27,252 nucleotides of DNA, taken from Auxenochlorella pyrenoidosa. Taxonomy: Eukaryota > Chlorophyta > Trebouxiophyceae > Chlorellales > Chlorellaceae. This document shows, piece by piece, positions 5,332 through 24,518 of the stretch. The notes beneath the pieces were generated by a model. It did no database searches, was not told the DNA's origin, and saw only the letters and a program-made list of their open reading frames with translations. Location of the stretch: NCBI GenBank assembly GCA_001430745.1, contig KQ481977.1, positions 532,986 through 560,237 of the forward strand. Reading direction: 5' to 3'. The translations under genes were made by a program, and so were the position numbers. Position 1 is the first letter of the stretch. Every line of letters begins with the position of its first letter.

Positions 5332-8300
5332 TCACGGCGGCAGCGCGGCATAGGCGGTGGGAGGCAGGCGGCGGGCCGCGGCTGCTGTGCTCTTGCCCGC
5401 CAGGCAGCCTGAGATGGGCGTCTCAGCCGAGGCCTTGGGGGCGTCATACATGCCTGGAAAGGGGGGGTGGGGGGTTGGGGGTGGAGGAAGGTAGCGTCAG
5501 CAGCATGAACAGGCAGGAGGTGCAAGAGGCGAGGATCCAGCAAGCAAGACAGAGTTGGGCGCACGGCTGGTGCAGGCTACTAGCATAAGCTGGCAGCGGC
5601 GCGCCTGGCGGCGCACGCGGAGCAGGCAGCACGCAGGCGGCTCGCACCGAAGCACCACAGCACGCCGGCATAGGATGCAGGGTCGCAGCCGTCCAGCGCC
5701 CAGCGGTGGTTGGCGTGCAGCGCAGCGCTGCAGGCAGCGGGACAAGCACACGGGCTGCGCGGCGTCAGCAGCCGTGCACCCAGATGGGCGACCGGGGAGC
5801 AGGCAGGGGCGTGAGAGCCGGCTGGCTGGCTGGCAGGGGGAGAGCCCTACGGGCGGCGCTTCAGGGTGCAGGGACTGTGGCCTCACAGGCAGCGAGGCGT
5901 GCGCTGCGGAGGCAGACGCAAGATCACAGCCCAGGCATGCGTGCTCGGGGTCCCCCCACTGGTGCTTGCCTGAGCGCCGCCTGCGGGGAGGGCGCCCAGC
6001 CCAGAAAGGCCTTGCCCCAGGTCATGCGGGACCAGTTGTGCAGCTCGCCTGCAAGACGGGGCAGGCCAGGCAATCGCGCATGTGATCGGCTCTTTTCCGC
6101 AGTGTGCGCAGCTTGCCTGCAGGCAGGCACAGGCGCAAACGTGCGCGCCAGCCGCCCTCATGCCGCCCGGCTCACGCGCCGAGGCGTCCGCCCGCCACGC
6201 TGCCCGCCTAAGCCGGCAGGCGGGCCGCAGCGTCCGGCAGGCCCCGCCCGCCGAGCTGCGGCAGGTGGCGTCGAGTCGCGACCCACACCCTTACATACCC
6301 TTTCCCTCCCTCGGCGCCCACACCCCAACCACACGGTGCCGCAATGCAACGCACCCGTCTCCACCAGCTGGCGCTGCGCCGCGTCCCACCAGCCATCGCC
6401 CGTCTGTCCCGCCTCCAGCCTGGCATAGGCCAGCGCCGCCGGGCGGGGGTCGCCCGCGTGGCGCTCCAGCGTGTCCCTTGCCCACCTGCGGCGCAGCAGG
6501 GGCGGGGGGGCAGCCGCTGGGCGGGGCCGGGGTTTGCAAGGGGGGGGCGGCGCCAGCCGAGAGCCACGTGCTGGTGTTGCATTCCAAAGAGAGCGCATCA
6601 GATGCAGCTTGTGACGGCACCGTGGCCTTGCAGGCCGAGCGGAGCAGCATCAGTCCGCTTGCGCGCGCGGCGCGGGAGCCAGCAGCATCGGATGAGTGCA
6701 AGCACAGGCGCGGCGGCTGCTCACCGCGGCAGCGCGGCCAGGCTGTGCAGCTGCACGTGGCGGTGCAGGCACAGGTTGAACCCGATCTCCCGCCAGACCA
6801 GGAACTCATCTGCAGGCAGGGCAGGGCAAATGCTCAGCGGCAGATGGGCAGGGCGAAGGCCGCAGCAGGGCGGGCAGGCGGGCAGGGCAGCGGTCCCAGG
6901 GGTTGACAACAGGGGCAAAGGCTCAGCGGCAGGTGGGCAGGGCAAAGGCTTTGACGGCAATGGGACGGGCGAGCGCGAAGTGGCGCCTGGGTTTGGGCAA
7001 CAGCGATGCGGCCTGGCACCGAGGGCAGCTGGGCGAGAGCAGCAAGTGCGGCAGGGTGCAGGCAGATCGTCACCGACCGCGTCCCCCAGCACACGTGACG
7101 GCATGTGGCGCTGAGCCTACGCCCGATGGCAGTGGTGTAACGCTCAGACAGGCTGCACGGCTGGCTCACCCAGGAACTTGGCTGCCCCGGCGCCGCGGTC
7201 CATGGCAGCCTCCCTGGCCACCTTGAAAGGAGACACCATGCCCCTGCGGGTCGCAGGGGGCACGGGACAGCTGGGCTACGCGCATCGCGGCACCCGGGGG
7301 CCTTGACACAGCAGTGTGCGCGAGGGGCCCGCGGGCAGTGGGCAGCCGCTCCCGGCGTGGGCAGCGGGCTGCACGCGACAATGCTATGTGCCACCCCTCC
7401 TGCGCCACCGCCACCAGCAGAAAACGAGCGACCCGCTGGCGCACCCCTGCTGGGCAGCCCCCGTAGCTGGCAGCCCGGGAAGAAGCAGAGGCAGCGGGAG
7501 AGGGCTGCACCCCGACCGTGTGGGGAGCAGCCCTCGGCGGCACACACGGGCACGCAGGAGCACAAACATGCGCCGCTGGCACCTCCCCACCAGTGGTGGT
7601 AGGCAGACAGCCGGCTGGTGCCCTCGCGCAGCATCGGGTCGTTGCGCCGCGCCGCGTACAGGGGCAAGCCCTTCCTGCGGGGGCAGCCAGTGGTGGCGCT
7701 GGTGGTGGTTGTGGTGTTGGTGGGCAGGTGGGTGCGGGGGGGGGGGGGGCCTCGCAGCAGGCGGCATGCGATGTCGGATGGGCGAAACATGATGGCTGCC
7801 CAGCCTACCGACGCCGCATGCACACCACAAGCGCCTACTTGCAGACTCTTGGCCGTCTGCCTGCACCGCCTGCACTCACTTGCGGAAGGCCTCCCAGCGG
7901 GCGTATCCCGCCGCGCTGCCGCCGGGCATGTGCGCCACGCTGGGCACGCTGTGGTCGATGGCGCAGCGCGACAGCAGCGCGGCCAGTTGCGGCGCCAGGT
8001 GCGGCGGCGGCACCCCTGCCAACTCCAGCGGTGCCCACCCCAGGCGCTCCTTGCTCAGCAGCTCTGGGGGCAGCGGTGGCAGGCTGGCCAGGGCCGCCGG
8101 CGGAGGCGCCAGGGCGGCGGGGCCCACTGGCGGGGCGCCGGGCGCCAGCTGGTAGGTCCGGGTGATGCGCTGCTTGCGCTGCGCCTCGGTGGCTGACCGG
8201 AAGGCATAGGCTCTGCAGGGCAGGGTGGGGTGGGTGGTGGTGGCAGGCCTCAGGTGGACTGTAGAGGAGCAGAGGGAGTGCTTGACCTGGTGGTGAGGGG

Positions 8301-10824
8301 CAGGCGCGGCGAGACCCGCGCAGCTTGCATTCTGCTGCGCAAGCATGGCACGGCGGAAGGGGGCAGCGGCAGCGGGGGCAGCGGCGGCGGCGGCACCGGT
8401 ACGCCCTCACTTTTCGTGGCACTTCTTCACCAGCCGCATGGGCAGCACGCAGGCCGTGTCCACCGCCGCCAGCGGCACCTGCGCAGGCAGCTGCTCTGCC
8501 AGCGCCTGCACAAGGCAGACGGGCAGGGTGGCATCAGGGGATCAGGCACGATAAGGCACATGGACAATGGGGCCAGCATGCCAGACCAGCGCAGGCAGGG
8601 CAGCGGCGGCGTCGGCAGGCGGGTCGGTGGGCAGAGAGCTGGATTGGCAGCGCCGGCACTGGCCCAAAGACATGCAGCACGAGGCCGGGGGTCACAGCAA
8701 GATGATGCAGCCACAGCCAGGCCTGCAAAGACTGCGCAGCGCCCGCACCAGCAGCCAGTCGGCATCGGGTGGAACCGGCATGTCCTCAGTGACCACTAGC
8801 GCCGCCCCAGAGGCCAGGCGCAGCAGAGCCTGCCAGCCGGCTACAGGGCAGCAGGAGGGGCGCAGAGAGGGGCACAGAGTGGCGTCTTGGGTGGGTGGGG
8901 CGGGGGCCAGGGCGGGAGCAGCGGCTGCGGGGACACCGGCGCCTGGGCAGGTGTGCAGGCGTTAGGTTTCAGGCAGTCCACCCTCCTGCCTGACTGCCCT
9001 GCATGGATGCCGCAGCCTCGGGAGGCAGGCATGGCAAGAAAGGCTCTTGTAATGCTAGGAATCACTGCGTCGCTGCCATCCCCAGGGCTGACCAGGGCTG
9101 ACCTGTCTGGCGGAAGCTGGGCGGCGGTTGGAAGCTGAAGGAGGGGGAGTAGGGGTCTGCGGCCGCCCTGCCCGCCGGCGCAGCGTCCGCGCCCGACGCA
9201 GCCGCGCCGCCGCCGACAACAGCAGTGTCCTGCCCCTCTGCCGGATCCCCCGCATCCTCCGCGCCCTCCACGTACACAAGCAGCTCGACGCCCTGCACGT
9301 CAAGGCACGTCGAGAAAAGCGCTTGTCATGAGCGCATCGATGGAGAGCCTGGGGCAGCAGCCGACTTGGCTGCCTGCTTCTCACTGCCTTGCCCAGGCAT
9401 ATATCGGCCGCCCGCTGCCCTTGCCGCAAAACTCTGCTTGGGCGCTAAGCCGTGGCCGCTGCGGCGCCAGCCCAAACAGCTTTAGCAGGTGTCCAGAGGT
9501 GCCGCCAGGCAGAGCGCACGGGGATGGCTCCTGGGGCAGCCACCTTAGCCAGCGGTCCAAAACAACCCCACAGACTCGGCTCAAGGGCGGCGCACCCGTG
9601 GCCCCGCACCCCCACACACACCTGGCCCCGCAGCTCGGCCTGCGCGTCCCGCAGCCCCTCCAGCAGGAAGGCCCAGCGCCGGGAAGAGGCGTAGGGGTGG
9701 GAGGCCAGCAGGAAGGAGGCGGCCAGCAGGGGGAGGCCCAGGGAGGCGGCTGCTGCTGCGGCGGCGTCCAGGGCTGGGTTCTCGTGCCCCCGCACAGCCG
9801 TCTTCATCCAGTAAAGAACGTAGGAGCCAGCAGGGTGCTCTGCCTGCTGTCCCTGCTGCGCCTGCCCCGCCTGCTGCGCCTGCCCCGTCTGCTGCGCCTG
9901 CCCCGTCTGCTGCGCCTGTCGCGGCACCATGCACACCCGCTCCCGCAGCAGCGGCGGCAGCGACTGCAGCCAGGCCTGGTCCCCGGGGGCCTGCTGCGCC
10001 TGCTGTGGCTGCTGCGCCGGCGCCCGCTCTCCGCCAGTGCTGTCCACGTGCATGGTCTGTGGGCCGTCATGCTGCCCCTGGTCGGGCGAGGCTCCAGGCG
10101 CGCCCTCCCCCGGTGTGCCCTCGCCCCCTTCCTCAGCATCCCCCAGCTGCTCCCCCTCCTCCTGCACCTGCCCCTCCTGCTGCTGCCTGCTGAAGTAGGA
10201 GGCAATGGAGCGCTGCTCTCGCAGCTGGCGCCGCCGCTCGCGCTCCGCCTCCAGCCCGGCCAGGCTGCCCCACTTGGCGATGGCCGCCTTCTCCAACTGC
10301 TCCTGCAGCAGCCACACAGGGACGCCTTCAGTCCTAGAAAACCCCAGAAATGGAAGTGCCTGGGCAAAATGCGAGTGCAGCCGTTTGAAGCCACACCCAG
10401 TCCAGAACGGAGCAATGGTCACTTCTCAGGCGGCTCCTGCAGCCGCCCACGCATTCGCACACAAGCCAATGTCACGGCGGTTGTGTGCCCGGTGTTGCCA
10501 AGGCGTGCCTGCTGAGCTCGGCACGGCGCCGCCCGCCCACCTTTTGAAAAAGCTTCATAGGTGGGCCTCGCCGCGCCCGTGGGTTGGGCCTTTCCTCGCA
10601 TTCCAACCCCTCCAGCTGAGGGGGCAAGGGAGGGGATCAGCATGGGAGTGTGGCCTGGGGTGGTGCCACCAGAGGGTGCCGGCAGAAGGTGACAGTGATG
10701 GAAATTGCGGTCCCTCCAGCAGCGCCGGCATCACATATATCTTCACCTCGCTGTCCTTGAGACAAAAGAGCGTTTTAGCCTGCGTCTTGGCCACCCATTT
10801 GCTGCGGTCGAGCCGAGGCGCCAT
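5332..10824 (-). CDS. XPA C-domain / photolyase-cryptochrome fusion protein
   Basis: Fourteen exons join in frame (minus strand, transcription order): 10824-10747, 10615-10541, 10302-9622, 9292-9103, 8840-8749, 8505-8411, 8212-7880, 7674-7591, 7243-7170, 6809-6725, 6485-6355, 6048-5970, 5727-5648 and 5453-5332 (TGA). They give 732 residues. Residues 1-76 match the XPA C-terminal DNA-binding domain: KTQAKTLFCLKDSE, then PNPRARRGPPMKLF, then AAIAKWGSLAGLEAERERR. No XPA zinc finger is visible. QRSIASYF (81-88) fits a PIP box. A Gln-rich linker reaches about 211. The photolyase alpha/beta domain starts at YVLYWMK (212). The FAD-binding helical domain shows GTSRLSAYHHWG (533-544), FLVWREIGFN, WWDAAQRQL (628-636), GELHNW (640-645) and LDGCDPASYAGVLWCFG. 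The last motifs resemble class II and plant photolyase-like groups. The likely role is light-driven pyrimidine-dimer repair in the nucleus; substrate class is uncertain. The intron between 6048-5970 and 5727-5648 is GC-AG. Confidence 0.88.
6824..6949. repeat. Direct repeat of 37 bp within an intron
   Basis: Two near-identical 37-base copies at 6824-6860 and 6913-6949 share GCTCAGCGGCAG and TGGGCAGGGC. They differ at only a few sites and lie 89 bp apart. Both are in the intron between photolyase exons 7243-7170 and 6809-6725. Nothing suggests a function. Confidence 0.8.
9853..9919 (-). repeat. 18-bp tandem repeat coding for QAQQ[T/A]G units
   Basis: Three to four copies of an 18-base unit (plus strand CTGCTGCGCCTGCCCCGT with small changes) lie in the large third exon of the photolyase fusion. 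Read on the minus strand they encode repeated QAQQTG or QAQQAG. The repeat forms the linker just before the photolyase fold, so length variation would not break a domain. Confidence 0.85.
10192..10215 (-). other. PIP-box-like motif QRSIASYF in the photolyase fusion
   Basis: The eight codons read Gln-Arg-Ser-Ile-Ala-Ser-Tyr-Phe. This fits the PCNA-interacting consensus Q-x-x-[ILM]-x-x-[FY]-[FY] at every defined position. It directly follows a basic helix (ERERRRQLRE) that ends the XPA-like domain and precedes an acidic, disordered linker, a typical setting for a PIP box. Binding to PCNA is inferred from the motif alone. Confidence 0.6.
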
Positions 10825-11380: not shown

Positions 11381-14300
11381 CTATGGGGCTGCTACAAGGG
11401 GTGCACCATCGCTGCCGGCGGCAACCGAAGCTGCCTGCGAGCTCTGCTGTCCGCCGCGGCCCCCGGCGCCGCCCCGACCGCTGCGCCCACGCCCGCGGCC
11501 CCGCCCGCCGCCAGGCGCGGAGGGCTCGCCTCCCTCGCCAGCAGCAGTGGAGACCGCAGCAGGCGGAGCATCCTTGCTCGCCTCGCTCGTTGCCGCAGCG
11601 GCATCAGGACTGCCGCCGCTGGCCCCCTTGCCGCCCTTGCCCCTGCTGCCACGCGGCTTGCGCTTGCCAGCACTGCCAGCCCCGGCTGCCGAGCCATTGG
11701 CCTCCTGACCCCCGGCGCTGTCTGCCGCTGCCGCTGCAGGCGCAGGCGCCGCCGCTGCTCCAGAGGCAGCCCCGCTGCTGGCCTTGCTCAGCCCAGGTGG
11801 CGGGGCCTGAGCAACGCCGCCGGCCTTCTTGCCGCCCAGGCCTGGCGGCGGGGCGGGGGCTGCTGCTGCGCTGGCGCCCTCCGCCGCTGGTGAGCAGGCA
11901 GTGGCCGCTCCGGGGCGGCGCTTGGGCACCACTAGCACCGCCCTTTTCTTCACCTCCCCATCGCCGCCTGCACGTGCCGCTGCGGCGGCTGGCTGGGGCG
12001 CCTGCTGCTCGGGGGGCTGCGCTGCTGCCAGCGGAGCTGTGGCGCCCGCAGGCTCCTCGCCTGCAGCGGCAGCCTTGTTCTTGCGGCCGCCGCGCGGGCG
12101 CTTTGCCTTGCCTGCGGCGCCGGCAGCGGGAGCCCCCTGGTCGGGGGCAGGGGCGGCGCCGCTGCTTGCCCGCGTCAGGGCCGGCGGTGGCGGCACAGGC
12201 GCCTTCACTGCAATCACCACGGGCGCTGCCGGCGCGGCAGCTGCCGCCTGAGCGGGCGCCTTGCCGCCGCGGCCGCCACGGCCGCCTGGCCGCTGCCCGC
12301 TGGCCTGCGCCGGCGCTGGCTGGGCTGCCGAGCAACGAGGGGGCGGGGGCGGCGGGGGAGCCACCACCACGGGCACAACCCTTGGGCGACGCTGGTTGGC
12401 ATCCTGCCGGCGTCCGGCCTGAGAACACGGGAGAGCAGGGGCAACGGCAGGCACGTGAATGCAAAAAGAACGAATTTAGCAATACGCAGCAACCCTGTCA
12501 AATCATTCCGCACGGCGGGCTGTGAGAGCGGCACGGCTTGGGCCACGCCACAGAGGATGCATGCCAAGCGCAGGAACAGGGCATGAAGGTCCAGGCAGGC
12601 GCTCACCCCCTGCTGCTGCTGTTGCTGCTGCTGAAGCTGCCGGGCACGCTCCGCCGCCTTCTGCTTCATGTAAGCACGCTGCGCCTCGGCCGACAGCGGG
12701 ACGTCAGCCGCCGCAGCAGGCATGGGAGCAGACTGCTCGGCGGCACTGGGCGGTGCCTCAGCATCTACGCTGCCATCAATGGCAGAGGGCAGCTGAATGG
12801 CTCCAAACTGCATCATCGCGTGCGGCTGCTGCTGCACATGCGGCGGGGCCAGCATGCTGCCCGGGGCGGCCAGCGGGGCGGCAGCGTACTGCGCGTGTGC
12901 CCCCGGCACCTGCTGGGGTGGGCCAAAGGTCATGAGGGGCAGCGAGGTGGGGACCAAGGGGGCCGCGGCGTGCTGCTGCTGCCGCTGCTGCTCCAGGGCT
13001 GCGAGCTGCGGATGGCCCAGCAGGCCCGGGTGCATTGCTGCAGAGGGCACGCCCAGCGCGGGCTGCTGGGCGCTGCCCGGCGGCAGCAGGTGCTGCTGCT
13101 GCGCCGACGGCGCCTGGCCACCAAAGTTGGCAACCACCGAGACGGGCGCCCGCTGCTGGGGAGGCAGGTGCGGGTGCAGGTGGGCGGCGCCCACGCCAGG
13201 CATGGGCATGCCAGGCGCGAGCGCAGCGTGCTGCGGCGGCAGCAGGCCGCGTGCAATCGCCTCCATGCCCGCCGCCTGCGGGCCCTGCTGCCGCGGCAGC
13301 CCGCTCGCCGGCATGCCCATCGCATGCTGCTGGGAGGGCGAGCTGAGGTGGTCCATGAGTGATGCCTGCGAGGGCAGGTTCACCGCGGTGCCAGGCTGAG
13401 GGTGGCCATGTGCCACGCCGTTGGGCTGGGGCTCCCGTTTGAGGATACGGGTAGGCTGCTGCTGGAGGGGGTAGCCGGGCTGCATAGGCCCGGGCTGCTG
13501 CTGCTGCTGCGCTGCCGAGCGGGGGCTGAGCACGCTTGGTGGGAGGTGTGCCTGCGGAGGCACCTGCCCCACAGCCTCCAGCTGCTGCCGCTGCTGCAGC
13601 AGCTCGGCGGCATCGGCGAGGCTGCCGGGCTCGCTGCGTGGCATGGAGCTGCCCAGCGTGGCAAGCCGGCTGCTCGCCAGCGTGCTGTCGCTCTGCTGCG
13701 TGGATGCGTTGCTGTGCAGGCTGCTGGTGCGCTCCAGCGGTGCCCCGCTGGGGTGCTGCTGCTGCGGCGGCTGCTGCACAGCGGCATGCTGCTCCGTGCT
13801 GGGCCCGTTAGGTTGCTGCAGGGCTCGGCGCGGTGGCGGCGGTGGCGGCGGCCGTGCAGCGTATGCCGGCGCTGCCAAGCCATCCGGGCCAGCTGCTGCA
13901 GGGCCGGCCGGGCCGCCTTGCTCGGGACCAGCGCTGGGCGGGCCTGCCGGCAGAGGGCCAGGGCTGCGGGCGCGGCGAGGGTACTCTCCCCATTCCCGCT
14001 CATCGCGATACCCGCCGCGCCTGCAGCAGCAGACAGCAAGGCAGCAAGTGTGAACGATCGTGGGTCGGCAGAGACGTGTTGTTCGCATGGCCGCAGGTCA
14101 CAGCTACGCACCACATGAAGCACGCCCGGCAGGGAACCTGTGCTGAATGACCTCTTGAGGGTGCAGGTTCAGGTCACGTCGACCTGGCCCATGCCGCAAC
14201 TGCTGCGCATTGTGCAACCCTGCCCTGCATGCTGCCCCTCGCTTCCATGCTGTCGTCTCACACCTGAAGCCTGGATCCTCGCGCTCGTATGACCCAGGCG

Positions 14301-22329: not shown

Positions 22330-23711
22330 ATGCCCAAAGCCAAGGCGAAGTCGAAGGCCAGCGAAGCCGAGCCTGTGATGGAGCTGCGAGTGGACGCTAG
22401 CAACCCCGACTCCCCAGCGTTCAGCGAGCCTGGGGCGGAGGCCGCTCGGTTCTCCACGCCCTGCAGCCTGACGGGCCTTGGCGCGGGCATTTCAGGCGGA
22501 TCTTTGGGCTGGGTGTTTGGATTCGGTAAGCGCCGGGACGATGGCCGCAGGGCTTGTGCTGGCCGCCGGGCGCCGGCTTGCTGCCGCCGCCAGGTGCTGC
22601 CAAGCGCTCTCACCCTGCTTTCCCGACCCATTGACCGCGCTGCTCCCAGGTGGCTATTGGATCCGCAACATGCGCGGGGGACAACTTAAAGCGTCGCTGG
22701 CAGAGGGCTGGGGCTCCGCTAAGGTGCGTTGGGCGACTGCGGCATCGGCCACCAGGCGCCAGTGCGAGGCACGCCTTTCCTGCCTCAGTGGTTGCCACCT
22801 GCTGCTTTCCTCGGGTACTCTACCTAGAACCCCCCTGCACCTGTCCCCTCTGCAGACATTTGGTATCATGGGCGGCCTGTACGCAGCCGTCAGCTGCTTC
22901 ATGCAGCGCCTGCGGCAGAAGAACGACGGTGGGTGCGCCTGCTGGCAGGCCTGTGGGGCAATCTGCTGGCAGGCCGCGCAGGAGCGCCAGGCGCACCTTG
23001 TGCTTGCATGTATGTCACTTTTTGACAGCACCGTCTGCAGCGGCCTGGGCACCTTGCGGCCCTGCTGGCACTCTTTGGCGCGGGCCTGCTGCCGAGGCGG
23101 CCACAGCAGCGACTGCGGACCTTCCCAGGCTCAACCCAACTGTGCGGGTCCCCCCTGCAGCCTGGAATGGCGCGGCATCGGGCTGTGCCACGGGGCTGGC
23201 GCTGGGCTGGAAGCAGGGGCCCATCAGCGCGCTGCAGGTGGGGCCTGCTCGCCCACTTGCAGACAGGCATACTGGGCTTGCCTGGCGCGGGGACCGACGG
23301 CACGGCGTGCATGTGTGCTATGTATCCCCCGTCAACACCCGCGATCTGCCCTGCCCCTGCTTGCTGTTGGCTTGCTGTGCCGGGAGCACCTCCGCCACCC
23401 GAACTCCCTGAAGCAGCCCGTCCATAACTGCTGCTGCGCGGCCCTCTCATGCCTCTCTCCTGCAGAGCTGTGCCATGCTGGGCTTCTTCTCTTACTTTGT
23501 GGACAGCATGGCGGTGCAGCCCGCGGCGGCAGCAGGCAGCGGCAGCGGCAGCAGGCAGCGGCAGCAGCAGGAGGCAAGGCAGCGCAGCCCCGTCGCGCTG
23601 CTGCTGTCGCCAGCGGTGCCGCTGCTGTTTGGGCCGTGCGCCGGCGGTGCCTGCTGCGCGAGCAAGGATGGCGGCACCGGCGGCGCGCTTGGCTGCCAAG
23701 TGCGGCGCTGA
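22330..23711 (+). CDS. Tim17/Tim22/Tim23-family membrane protein, Tim22-like
   Basis: Five exons join in frame: 22330-22525, 22650-22723, 22856-22928, 23161-23237 and 23466-23711 (TGA). They give 221 residues. A lysine-rich N-terminus (MPKAKAKSKASEAEP) precedes a Gly-rich first membrane segment, GLGAGISGGSLGWVFGFGGY. WGSAKTFGIMGGLYAAVSCF follows, then the loop RLRQKND, a segment with NGAASGCATGLALGWKQGP, and SCAMLGFFSYFVD. The regular Gly spacing, the charged R-x-R-x-K-x-D loop and the N-x-x-x-x-G-C-x-T-G motif are typical of Tim22, which inserts carrier proteins into the mitochondrial inner membrane. Related plastid proteins (HP20/HP30, OEP16) share the fold, so the compartment is not certain. 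A tail of about 65 residues, Gln/Ala-rich with a hydrophobic Cys-containing stretch, is unusual for the family. The gene is divergent from the CapK-like gene. Confidence 0.8.
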
Positions 23712-24518
23712 GCATGCGCGCGCTGGCTCTGGGGAGCCCGTGCTGCACTCCATGTGCCCCCCTGCTGCTCTCTGCTCCTGTCCATGCTCCCCCGGTGCCT
23801 TGCAACTTGACCCTTGCAACCAGCCCTTGCAAGGCATCGTGCACTGACCCTCTTCCCCGGTTGCATGGTACAGCGCAGGAGAGCGCAGAAAAAAGCAAGT
23901 GCTAGTAAACTCAGCGCAGAGGCAGAGGCAACCAACCCGCCCCGCTGCTGTGCAGCTGTTGCGGGGTCGGCCAGCCAACAAAAAATGTCATAACTGGCTG
24001 GCACGGCGCGGCTAGGAGGGGGCGCGACGCATTGCAAAAAGATCAGGGTGAGGAGGCAGGTGCGGCGGTGCTAAGGCAGGTGTTCAGGGGCATATGTAGC
24101 TGAGGCATTTATGCTGCTGCGTCGGCGGGCAGACCGGTTGCGAGGGGCCTCATGAAAAGCAGGGCTGGGGTGATGTGAGGAGGCGACTTTGGTACAGAGT
24201 AGTCAGAAAGTTTGGGTGGGTTGGAAGGATGGGAAGATTGGGAGGCACTCATAGAGCGGGCGCGTCCGCTGTGAGGCGCTGGTGTGGCGCCCGCACGCAG
24301 AGCTGAGGGCCCAGGCATCTTCTGACGCCAGGCCAGCAGGGGCTGGGTGGCGGACACGGCGACAGGCAGGCAGGCAGGCAGTGCCGGGAGCTTGGTGGTG
24401 GTGCGGCACCCGGCGCGCGGCTGGCAGCGCCCAGGAGCAGGCCCGCAGTCGGGCACCTGGCTGCTGCTGCGCGGCAGGCAGACGCGTCAGTTTGCAGGCA
24501 GCTGAAGCAGGCGGCGCC
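23712..24518. other. Convergent intergenic region
   Basis: The Tim-family gene ends at 23711 and the minus-strand gene at right ends at 24519, so about 800 bases are shared 3' flank. No exon with credible splice sites is visible on either strand, and no clean TGTAA was found. A short (GGCA)n run lies near 24365-24380. Confidence 0.45.

Follow-up and report, generated by a model that had tools for sequence, protein, structure and literature searches.

A predicted gene joining an XPA_C-type module to a class-II-like photolyase of a mainly bacterial clade in the green alga Auxenochlorella pyrenoidosa

The genome of Auxenochlorella pyrenoidosa comprises 51.6 Mb in 65 contigs, and we analysed a stretch of 27,252 nt from contig KQ481977.1 (C21 in our numbering), which is referred to as the window and in whose positions the coordinates below are given. 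On its minus strand, at 10824-5332, lies a gene for which we obtained a complete model of 14 exons with a product of 732 amino acids (Table 1). Splice sites in this model were picked by homology, and the 13 introns, which are 131-360 nt long, all have AG acceptors and GT donors except for one GC donor. Exons 1-3 are 78, 75 and 681 nt in length, all in phase 0, and follow the GT..AG rule. These three exons had been placed correctly to the base in a preliminary description of this DNA, and the interval given there, 9622..10824, contains them; the gene itself extends beyond it, to a stop at 5332. An alternative donor for intron 1, 12 nt downstream and adding VKIY, was rejected for the main model on its XPA_C score (33.2 versus 37 bits), and it is possible that it represents an isoform. 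We also observed that the stop of the gene, at 5332-5340, overlaps a donor-like GTGAGC. Upstream on the minus strand, 11384-12475 and 12214-14097 hold long frames that are rich in Q, P, A and G and had no Pfam match in either, and 22472-23902 on the plus strand weakly resembles Tim17 (18.7 bits against a cut-off of 32.7).

Table 1. Features of the predicted fusion gene, in window positions
Feature	Position	Strand	Residues and remarks
Exon 1	10747..10824	-	aa 1-26; first part of the XPA_C-like module (KT..AK..LKD)
Exon 2	10541..10615	-	aa 27-51; hairpin region of XPA_C, RPNPRARRGPPMKLFQK, without the Trp of the hairpin tip
Exon 3	9622..10302	-	681 nt, aa 52-278; last part of the XPA-like helix, then the PIP-box-like motif, the linker and the first part of the photolyase alpha/beta domain
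PIP-box-like motif QRSIASYF	10192..10215	-	aa 81-88
Linker, low-complexity, Q/G/E-rich	9976..10191	-	approx. aa 89-160; composition is that of aa 89-162
LPPLLRERV	9934..9960	-	aa 166-174; several bacterial relatives have an LPPHLAERV-type motif at the N-terminus in the aligned position
Short tandem repeats of Q, A and G (units of QAQQTG)	9844..9918	-	approx. aa 180-204; read off the translation
Exon 4, photolyase	9103..9292	-	
Exon 5	8749..8840	-	
Exon 6	8411..8505	-	
Exon 7	7880..8212	-	
Exon 8	7591..7674	-	RNDP..SRLSAYHHW
Exon 9	7170..7243	-	
Exon 10	6725..6809	-	active-site Glu E569 (E301 in the M. mazei enzyme), W573
Exon 11	6355..6485	-	W629 (W360)
Exon 12	5970..6048	-	N644, M648, T649, W650, W657; GC donor
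Exon 13	5648..5727	-	N672 (N403), W690 (W421)
Exon 14 and stop	5332..5453	-	product ends with the photolyase, without an oxidase domain

Using hmmscan on the first 81 residues we detected PF05181 (XPA_C) over residues 10-53, with 37.3 bits and an E-value of 2.5e-9 against a curated cut-off of 25, in agreement with the XPA C-like domain reported previously, while the same profile gave 32.4 bits in the whole 732-residue protein. As a control, the reversed N-terminal 90 residues were submitted and had no Pfam match. The rad14 equivalog of NCBIfam, TIGR00598, scored 43.3 bits, under its cut-off of 113.15. Comparison of residues 1-90 with the PDB (E <= 10) returned human XPA (2.8e-7, residues 6-82), Rad14 (5.6e-6 at best) and the XPA-like domain of SLC30A9 (0.003), the remaining match being one unrelated chain (E 1.5). 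When residues 1-100 were aligned with residues 134-214 of human XPA the local score was 117, with 29 identities in 76 aligned residues, and the maximum of 2000 shuffles was 56. Exons 1-2 alone (score 66) and the exon 3 part alone, residues 52-90 (score 54), each aligned with human XPA at a score that none of 2000 shuffles reached.

The strongest evidence for the join is that the XPA similarity lies in the start of the uninterrupted exon 3 with no stop before the photolyase, whose YVLYWMK motif begins at residue 212 (9822) inside the same exon, so that both parts are predicted to form one polypeptide. That the end of an XPA C-like domain and the start of a photolyase share one uninterrupted 681-nt exon had been the central claim of the preliminary description, and it is confirmed here, the XPA similarity being present before and after the exon 2/3 junction. 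We are accordingly left with high confidence in the predicted architecture, an XPA_C-type module and a photolyase joined in one gene and polypeptide. The splice sites are homology-chosen and the gene is predicted from genomic DNA, so the apparent fusion could come from two adjacent genes, from contaminating bacterial DNA or from faulty assembly, but this is extremely improbable and was rejected, as the uninterrupted frame covers both halves, the XPA similarity is independent on each side of the exon 2/3 junction, and the 13 introns have GT/GC..AG ends and lie in a genome of 51.6 Mb, a size that together with the introns points to a eukaryote.

Further comparison of the module with human XPA showed that K141, T142, K145 and K179 align with algal K13, T14, K17 and K47, and that the start of the long helix is kept (WGS..LE...E.R...RE). 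Human W175, at the hairpin tip, aligns with Gly43 in NPRARRGPP and is lost, and four residues ahead of the hairpin in human XPA are without an algal counterpart. The XPA_N zinc finger, formed of Cys 105, 108, 126 and 128, which are conserved in XPA according to the available sections of PMC10810185, is absent, as had been stated before: residues 1-90 contain Cys 21 and 32 only, and in the 776 nt preceding the ATG none of three frames held a suitable set of zinc-finger cysteines. Cys 261 and 264 in the C-terminus of XPA are likewise absent, and their place is occupied by the linker and the photolyase. What the algal protein has in common with XPA and Rad14 is the XPA_C domain plus the beginning of the long helix; it differs from these in that the zinc finger, W175, the conserved C-terminal cysteines and the N- and C-terminal partner-binding regions are missing, and by the criteria given in the accessible text of PMC10810185 it is not an XPA.

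As described in the available parts of PMC6599211 and PMC11445577, W175 of XPA stacks on the junction base, with the hairpin sitting at the junction, while the extended helix acts as a DNA clamp. In the alga, junction binding may have gone with the hairpin-tip Trp. Of the DNA-binding half of XPA, described earlier as kept, the alga has the N-terminal lysines and the first part of the long helix, but not the Trp at the hairpin tip. The proposal that went with it, that the module holds bent or junction DNA for the photolyase, is weakened because this wedge residue is gone, although with the lysines and long helix kept it is possible still; a duplex clamp formed by the helix, perhaps together with PCNA docking, would fit the sequence better than junction holding.

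An XPA-like domain is also found within a different host protein, the solute carrier SLC30A9 (2ENK), and the algal module could similarly be an XPA_C-type fold with an origin other than XPA proper, like the one in SLC30A9 or those of the F-box clade, and serve protein contacts, in which case the fusion would be incidental to DNA repair. Human XPA 134-214 scored 35.7 bits against SLC30A9, which is about the score of the algal module against XPA (34.1 bits in the PDB comparison), so score does not decide the descent of the module. However, the score of the algal module was lower with SLC30A9 (21.2) than with either XPA (34.1) or Rad14 (30), and the module is joined to a DNA repair enzyme; we consider an origin outside XPA improbable. 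Profile searches of the alga's own genome for XPA_C, rad14 and XPA_N gave, outside the fusion gene, only one XPA_N match (E 3.97), and PCNA and rad4 were likewise not found, but these negatives mean little since the genome is intron-rich and even PCNA and the XPA_C domain of the fusion gene itself were missed.

Adjoining the end of the XPA similarity (residues 81-82) is the motif QRSIASYF, which agrees with the PIP-box consensus Qxx[ILM]xx[aromatic][aromatic]. When the six-frame stop-to-stop ORFs of the window with at least 60 aa were scanned (42,145 residues), this was the sole match to Q..[ILMV]..[FY][FY], and in 179,898 residues of bacterial ORFs the pattern occurred 3 times. Shuffling produced it in 24 of 20000 trials with residues 1-210, 5 of 20000 with residues 54-210 and 71 of 5000 with the whole protein, although these figures are optimistic because the motif was spotted after reading the sequence. 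Human XPA binds PCNA directly via an APIM motif around F164, according to the available text of PMC3496702; the human APIM residues align with algal ECEER, and the APIM is lost. A PCNA link of the algal fusion protein through the putative PIP-box is plausible, and the motif, on which the preliminary description is silent, would offer a more specific route than the holding of bent or junction DNA.

The remainder of the product matched PF00875 (DNA_photolyase) with 52 bits (cut-off 26.6), while PF03441 (FAD_binding_7) fell just under its cut-off of 27 with 24.7 bits; two bacterial relatives likewise scored below this cut-off (24.4 and 15.4 bits). A PDB class II photolyase was matched at 1.2e-43, with the best stretch at residues 481-714, and TIGR00591, which represents canonical class II enzymes, gave 265.7 bits, under its cut-off of 550.05. 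Comparison with several bacterial relatives showed that photolyase-family similarity starts at about LPPLLRERV (residue 166), upstream of YVLYWM. The alga also has a separate canonical class II gene, on the minus strand of contig C47 (294000-301500; L021), and its enzyme is closest to PDB 3UMV, the rice protein (612 bits, versus 498 for the next chains, of Methanosarcina type), as would suit a green alga.

Bacterial relatives were collected by tblastn and a genome scan, and the best 80 of 574 confirmed stretches were used. In an 86-row tree built with these best 80 of 574, the algal protein belongs to a 55-row clade with 54 bacterial class-II-like proteins, with support of 99/99 (ultrafast bootstrap/SH-aLRT); the identities of the 54 members were taken from a quick tree, in which a 55-row clade is likewise present. 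Within the clade the position of the alga is poorly supported (81/27) and its composition deviates from that of the alignment, which makes transfer from bacteria and older descent indistinguishable. Identity to the best bacterial relatives (best 80 of 574) is ~48-50%, versus 31% to the C47 enzyme. Class II CPD photolyases (rice 3UMV, M. mazei 2XRY and the alga's own C47 enzyme) share the fold family and catalytic residues with the algal protein but form another clade on the other side of the tree, at ~31% identity for C47, and the N-terminal module is a feature of the algal fusion.

Residues were numbered after the M. mazei enzyme by counting along the PDB alignment from known landmarks. All seven residues checked are kept in the alga, where E569, W629, M648, W650, W657, N672 and W690 correspond to E301, W360, M379, W381, W388, N403 and W421; in the 54 bacterial relatives (best 80 of 574) the same positions are kept in 54, 54, 54, 54, 53, 54 and 52, respectively, the two relatives missing at W421 having gaps there. 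Other positions set the clade apart from the 31 other tree rows (relatives again from the best 80 of 574). W305 is present in the alga and in 54/54 relatives, with Arg in 28 of the other rows, and position 380 is Thr in the alga (Thr649) and in 52 relatives, Ser in the other two, and Tyr or Leu in 31/31 other rows. His at 404, which is Asp in M. mazei (D404), is found in the alga, in 46/54 relatives and in one other row, while N375 is less exclusive, being present in the alga, in 53/54 relatives and in 13 other rows. Judged by its sequence, the algal photolyase half belongs with the class-II-like enzymes of a clade that is mainly bacterial and is not an ordinary class II photolyase. The earlier label 'photolyase/cryptochrome' was thus right as to photolyase but too generic, since the protein is of this bacterial clade and the ordinary class II gene is a separate one.

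A Polymorphobacter protein (P0002) stands next to the algal and bacterial clade (97/95) without being part of it; its branch is long and its placement unsure, and we took it as PhrSph98-like because the available part of PMC9649867 lists a Polymorphobacter homologue. The PhrSph98-type bifunctional CPD/(6-4) photolyases of that paper resemble the algal protein, which has equivalents of their W314, N384, M388 and N412 (a numbering offset of +9), but Tyr389 of their electron path is Thr649 in the alga. The same text states that Thr or Leu in the place of Y380 could not join electron transfer, and it leaves such sequences, its node 13, out of the bifunctional group and excludes them from the true homologues. 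In the literature we searched, we came across no test of light-driven repair for any protein of the Thr380 clade. The Thr at 380 and the His at 404 that mark the clade, together with the ordinary class II photolyase gene already in the genome, would suit a photolyase half that has turned into a light sensor or regulator of cryptochrome type and is brought to DNA by the XPA module. Nevertheless, the equivalents of the lesion-pocket residues Glu301, Met379 and Trp421 and of tryptophans 360, 381 and 388 are kept, and there is no cryptochrome C-terminal extension, with the stop coming directly after the photolyase, and we regard a sensor as quite improbable.

The bacterial Thr380 proteins come from Planctomycetota, Gemmatimonadota, Myxococcota, Pseudomonadota and others, and share with the alga the clade (99/99) and the markers W305, N375 and T380; however, many have a C-terminal amine oxidase, which the alga lacks, and no XPA-like stretch was found in the 523 bacterial ORFs (at least 150 aa) searched in the 80 loci (best 80 of 574). 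More than 250 residues follow the photolyase in 40 of the 80 bacterial ORFs (best 80 of 574), which is an undercount because contig ends and the extraction cut hide some tails, for example in L024. A Pfam flavin amine oxidase was identified in the tails of two out of two proteins and then in six of seven more, the seventh running off its contig (all among the best 80 of 574), and C-terminal FAD/amine-oxidase-like fusions occur in L022, L054, L050, L056, L070, L060, L044, L065 and others. We searched the window by tblastn with 47 bacterial C-termini (from those ORFs of the 80 loci that exceed 750 aa) and rejected a hidden downstream oxidase exon, the only two matches apart from the photolyase exons being at 15305-15075 (E 0.008) and 1545-1429 (E 0.009). 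Elsewhere in the algal genome, C11:497447-497623 (L104) has a weak separate match (24.1 bits) to a bacterial amine-oxidase domain. Scans of viral contigs gave no relative, and none was found in phage records. This type of photolyase seems prone to fusion, and that of the alga would be a different one.

On balance, we hold our best explanation to be somewhat more likely than not, namely that the locus is one nuclear gene for a light-driven repair enzyme, in which a photolyase half of the bacterial clade is combined with an XPA-type DNA-binding module, a possible PIP-box and a flexible linker. The mechanism we propose for it, to which we give roughly even weight, is that FADH- would pass an electron to the pyrimidine dimer, as in class II enzymes, while the XPA module would clamp duplex DNA via its basic residues and long helix, and that this clamp would raise residence near lesions; the PIP-box, if functional, would let the enzyme dock with PCNA at replication forks or at patches of repair. 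The fusion protein is best read as a tethered photolyase and not as a replacement XPA.

It is rather unlikely that the XPA-like module is instead a docking site for excision repair (TFIIH/XPB), with the photolyase binding the dimer in the dark and passing lesions on without light. Photolyases can stimulate excision in the dark, which counts for such docking, and the algal similarity covers the start of the XPA extended helix. This is the helix by which human XPA contacts XPB, with the hairpin contacting XPD, according to the available sections of PMC6599211, but the XPA C-terminal region that reaches p52 and p8 in the same source is absent in the alga. Absent too are the hairpin-tip Trp and the zinc finger, to which the accessible part of PMC11445577 assigns contacts with RPA, XPF/ERCC1 and XPD.

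The available text of a 2023 survey reports XPA to be absent from green algae and most green plants, XPA-like hits with other domain architectures having been removed in that survey (PMC10810185), and a 2025 review treats plant excision repair without XPA as an open question in its available part (PMC12707071). Among the matches listed for photolyase with XPA or PIP-box, titles and abstract starts mentioned no XPA-photolyase fusion, and there was no such fusion in the available portions of PMC4564169, PMC9498864, PMC12558739 and PMC10498010. It is possible, if doubtful, that a DNA clamp derived from XPA is kept in a green alga as part of a PCNA-docked photolyase of bacterial ancestry, which would mean replication-coupled photoreactivation and an XPA remnant in a lineage reported to be without XPA. 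The 55 accepted homologues of PhrSph98 are all bacterial in the available text of PMC9649867, and the oxygenic phototrophs among them are cyanobacteria only; the fusion would add a eukaryotic member to the photolyase group adjoining PhrSph98, and it offers a concrete molecule for asking whether light repair rides on replication or excision factors.
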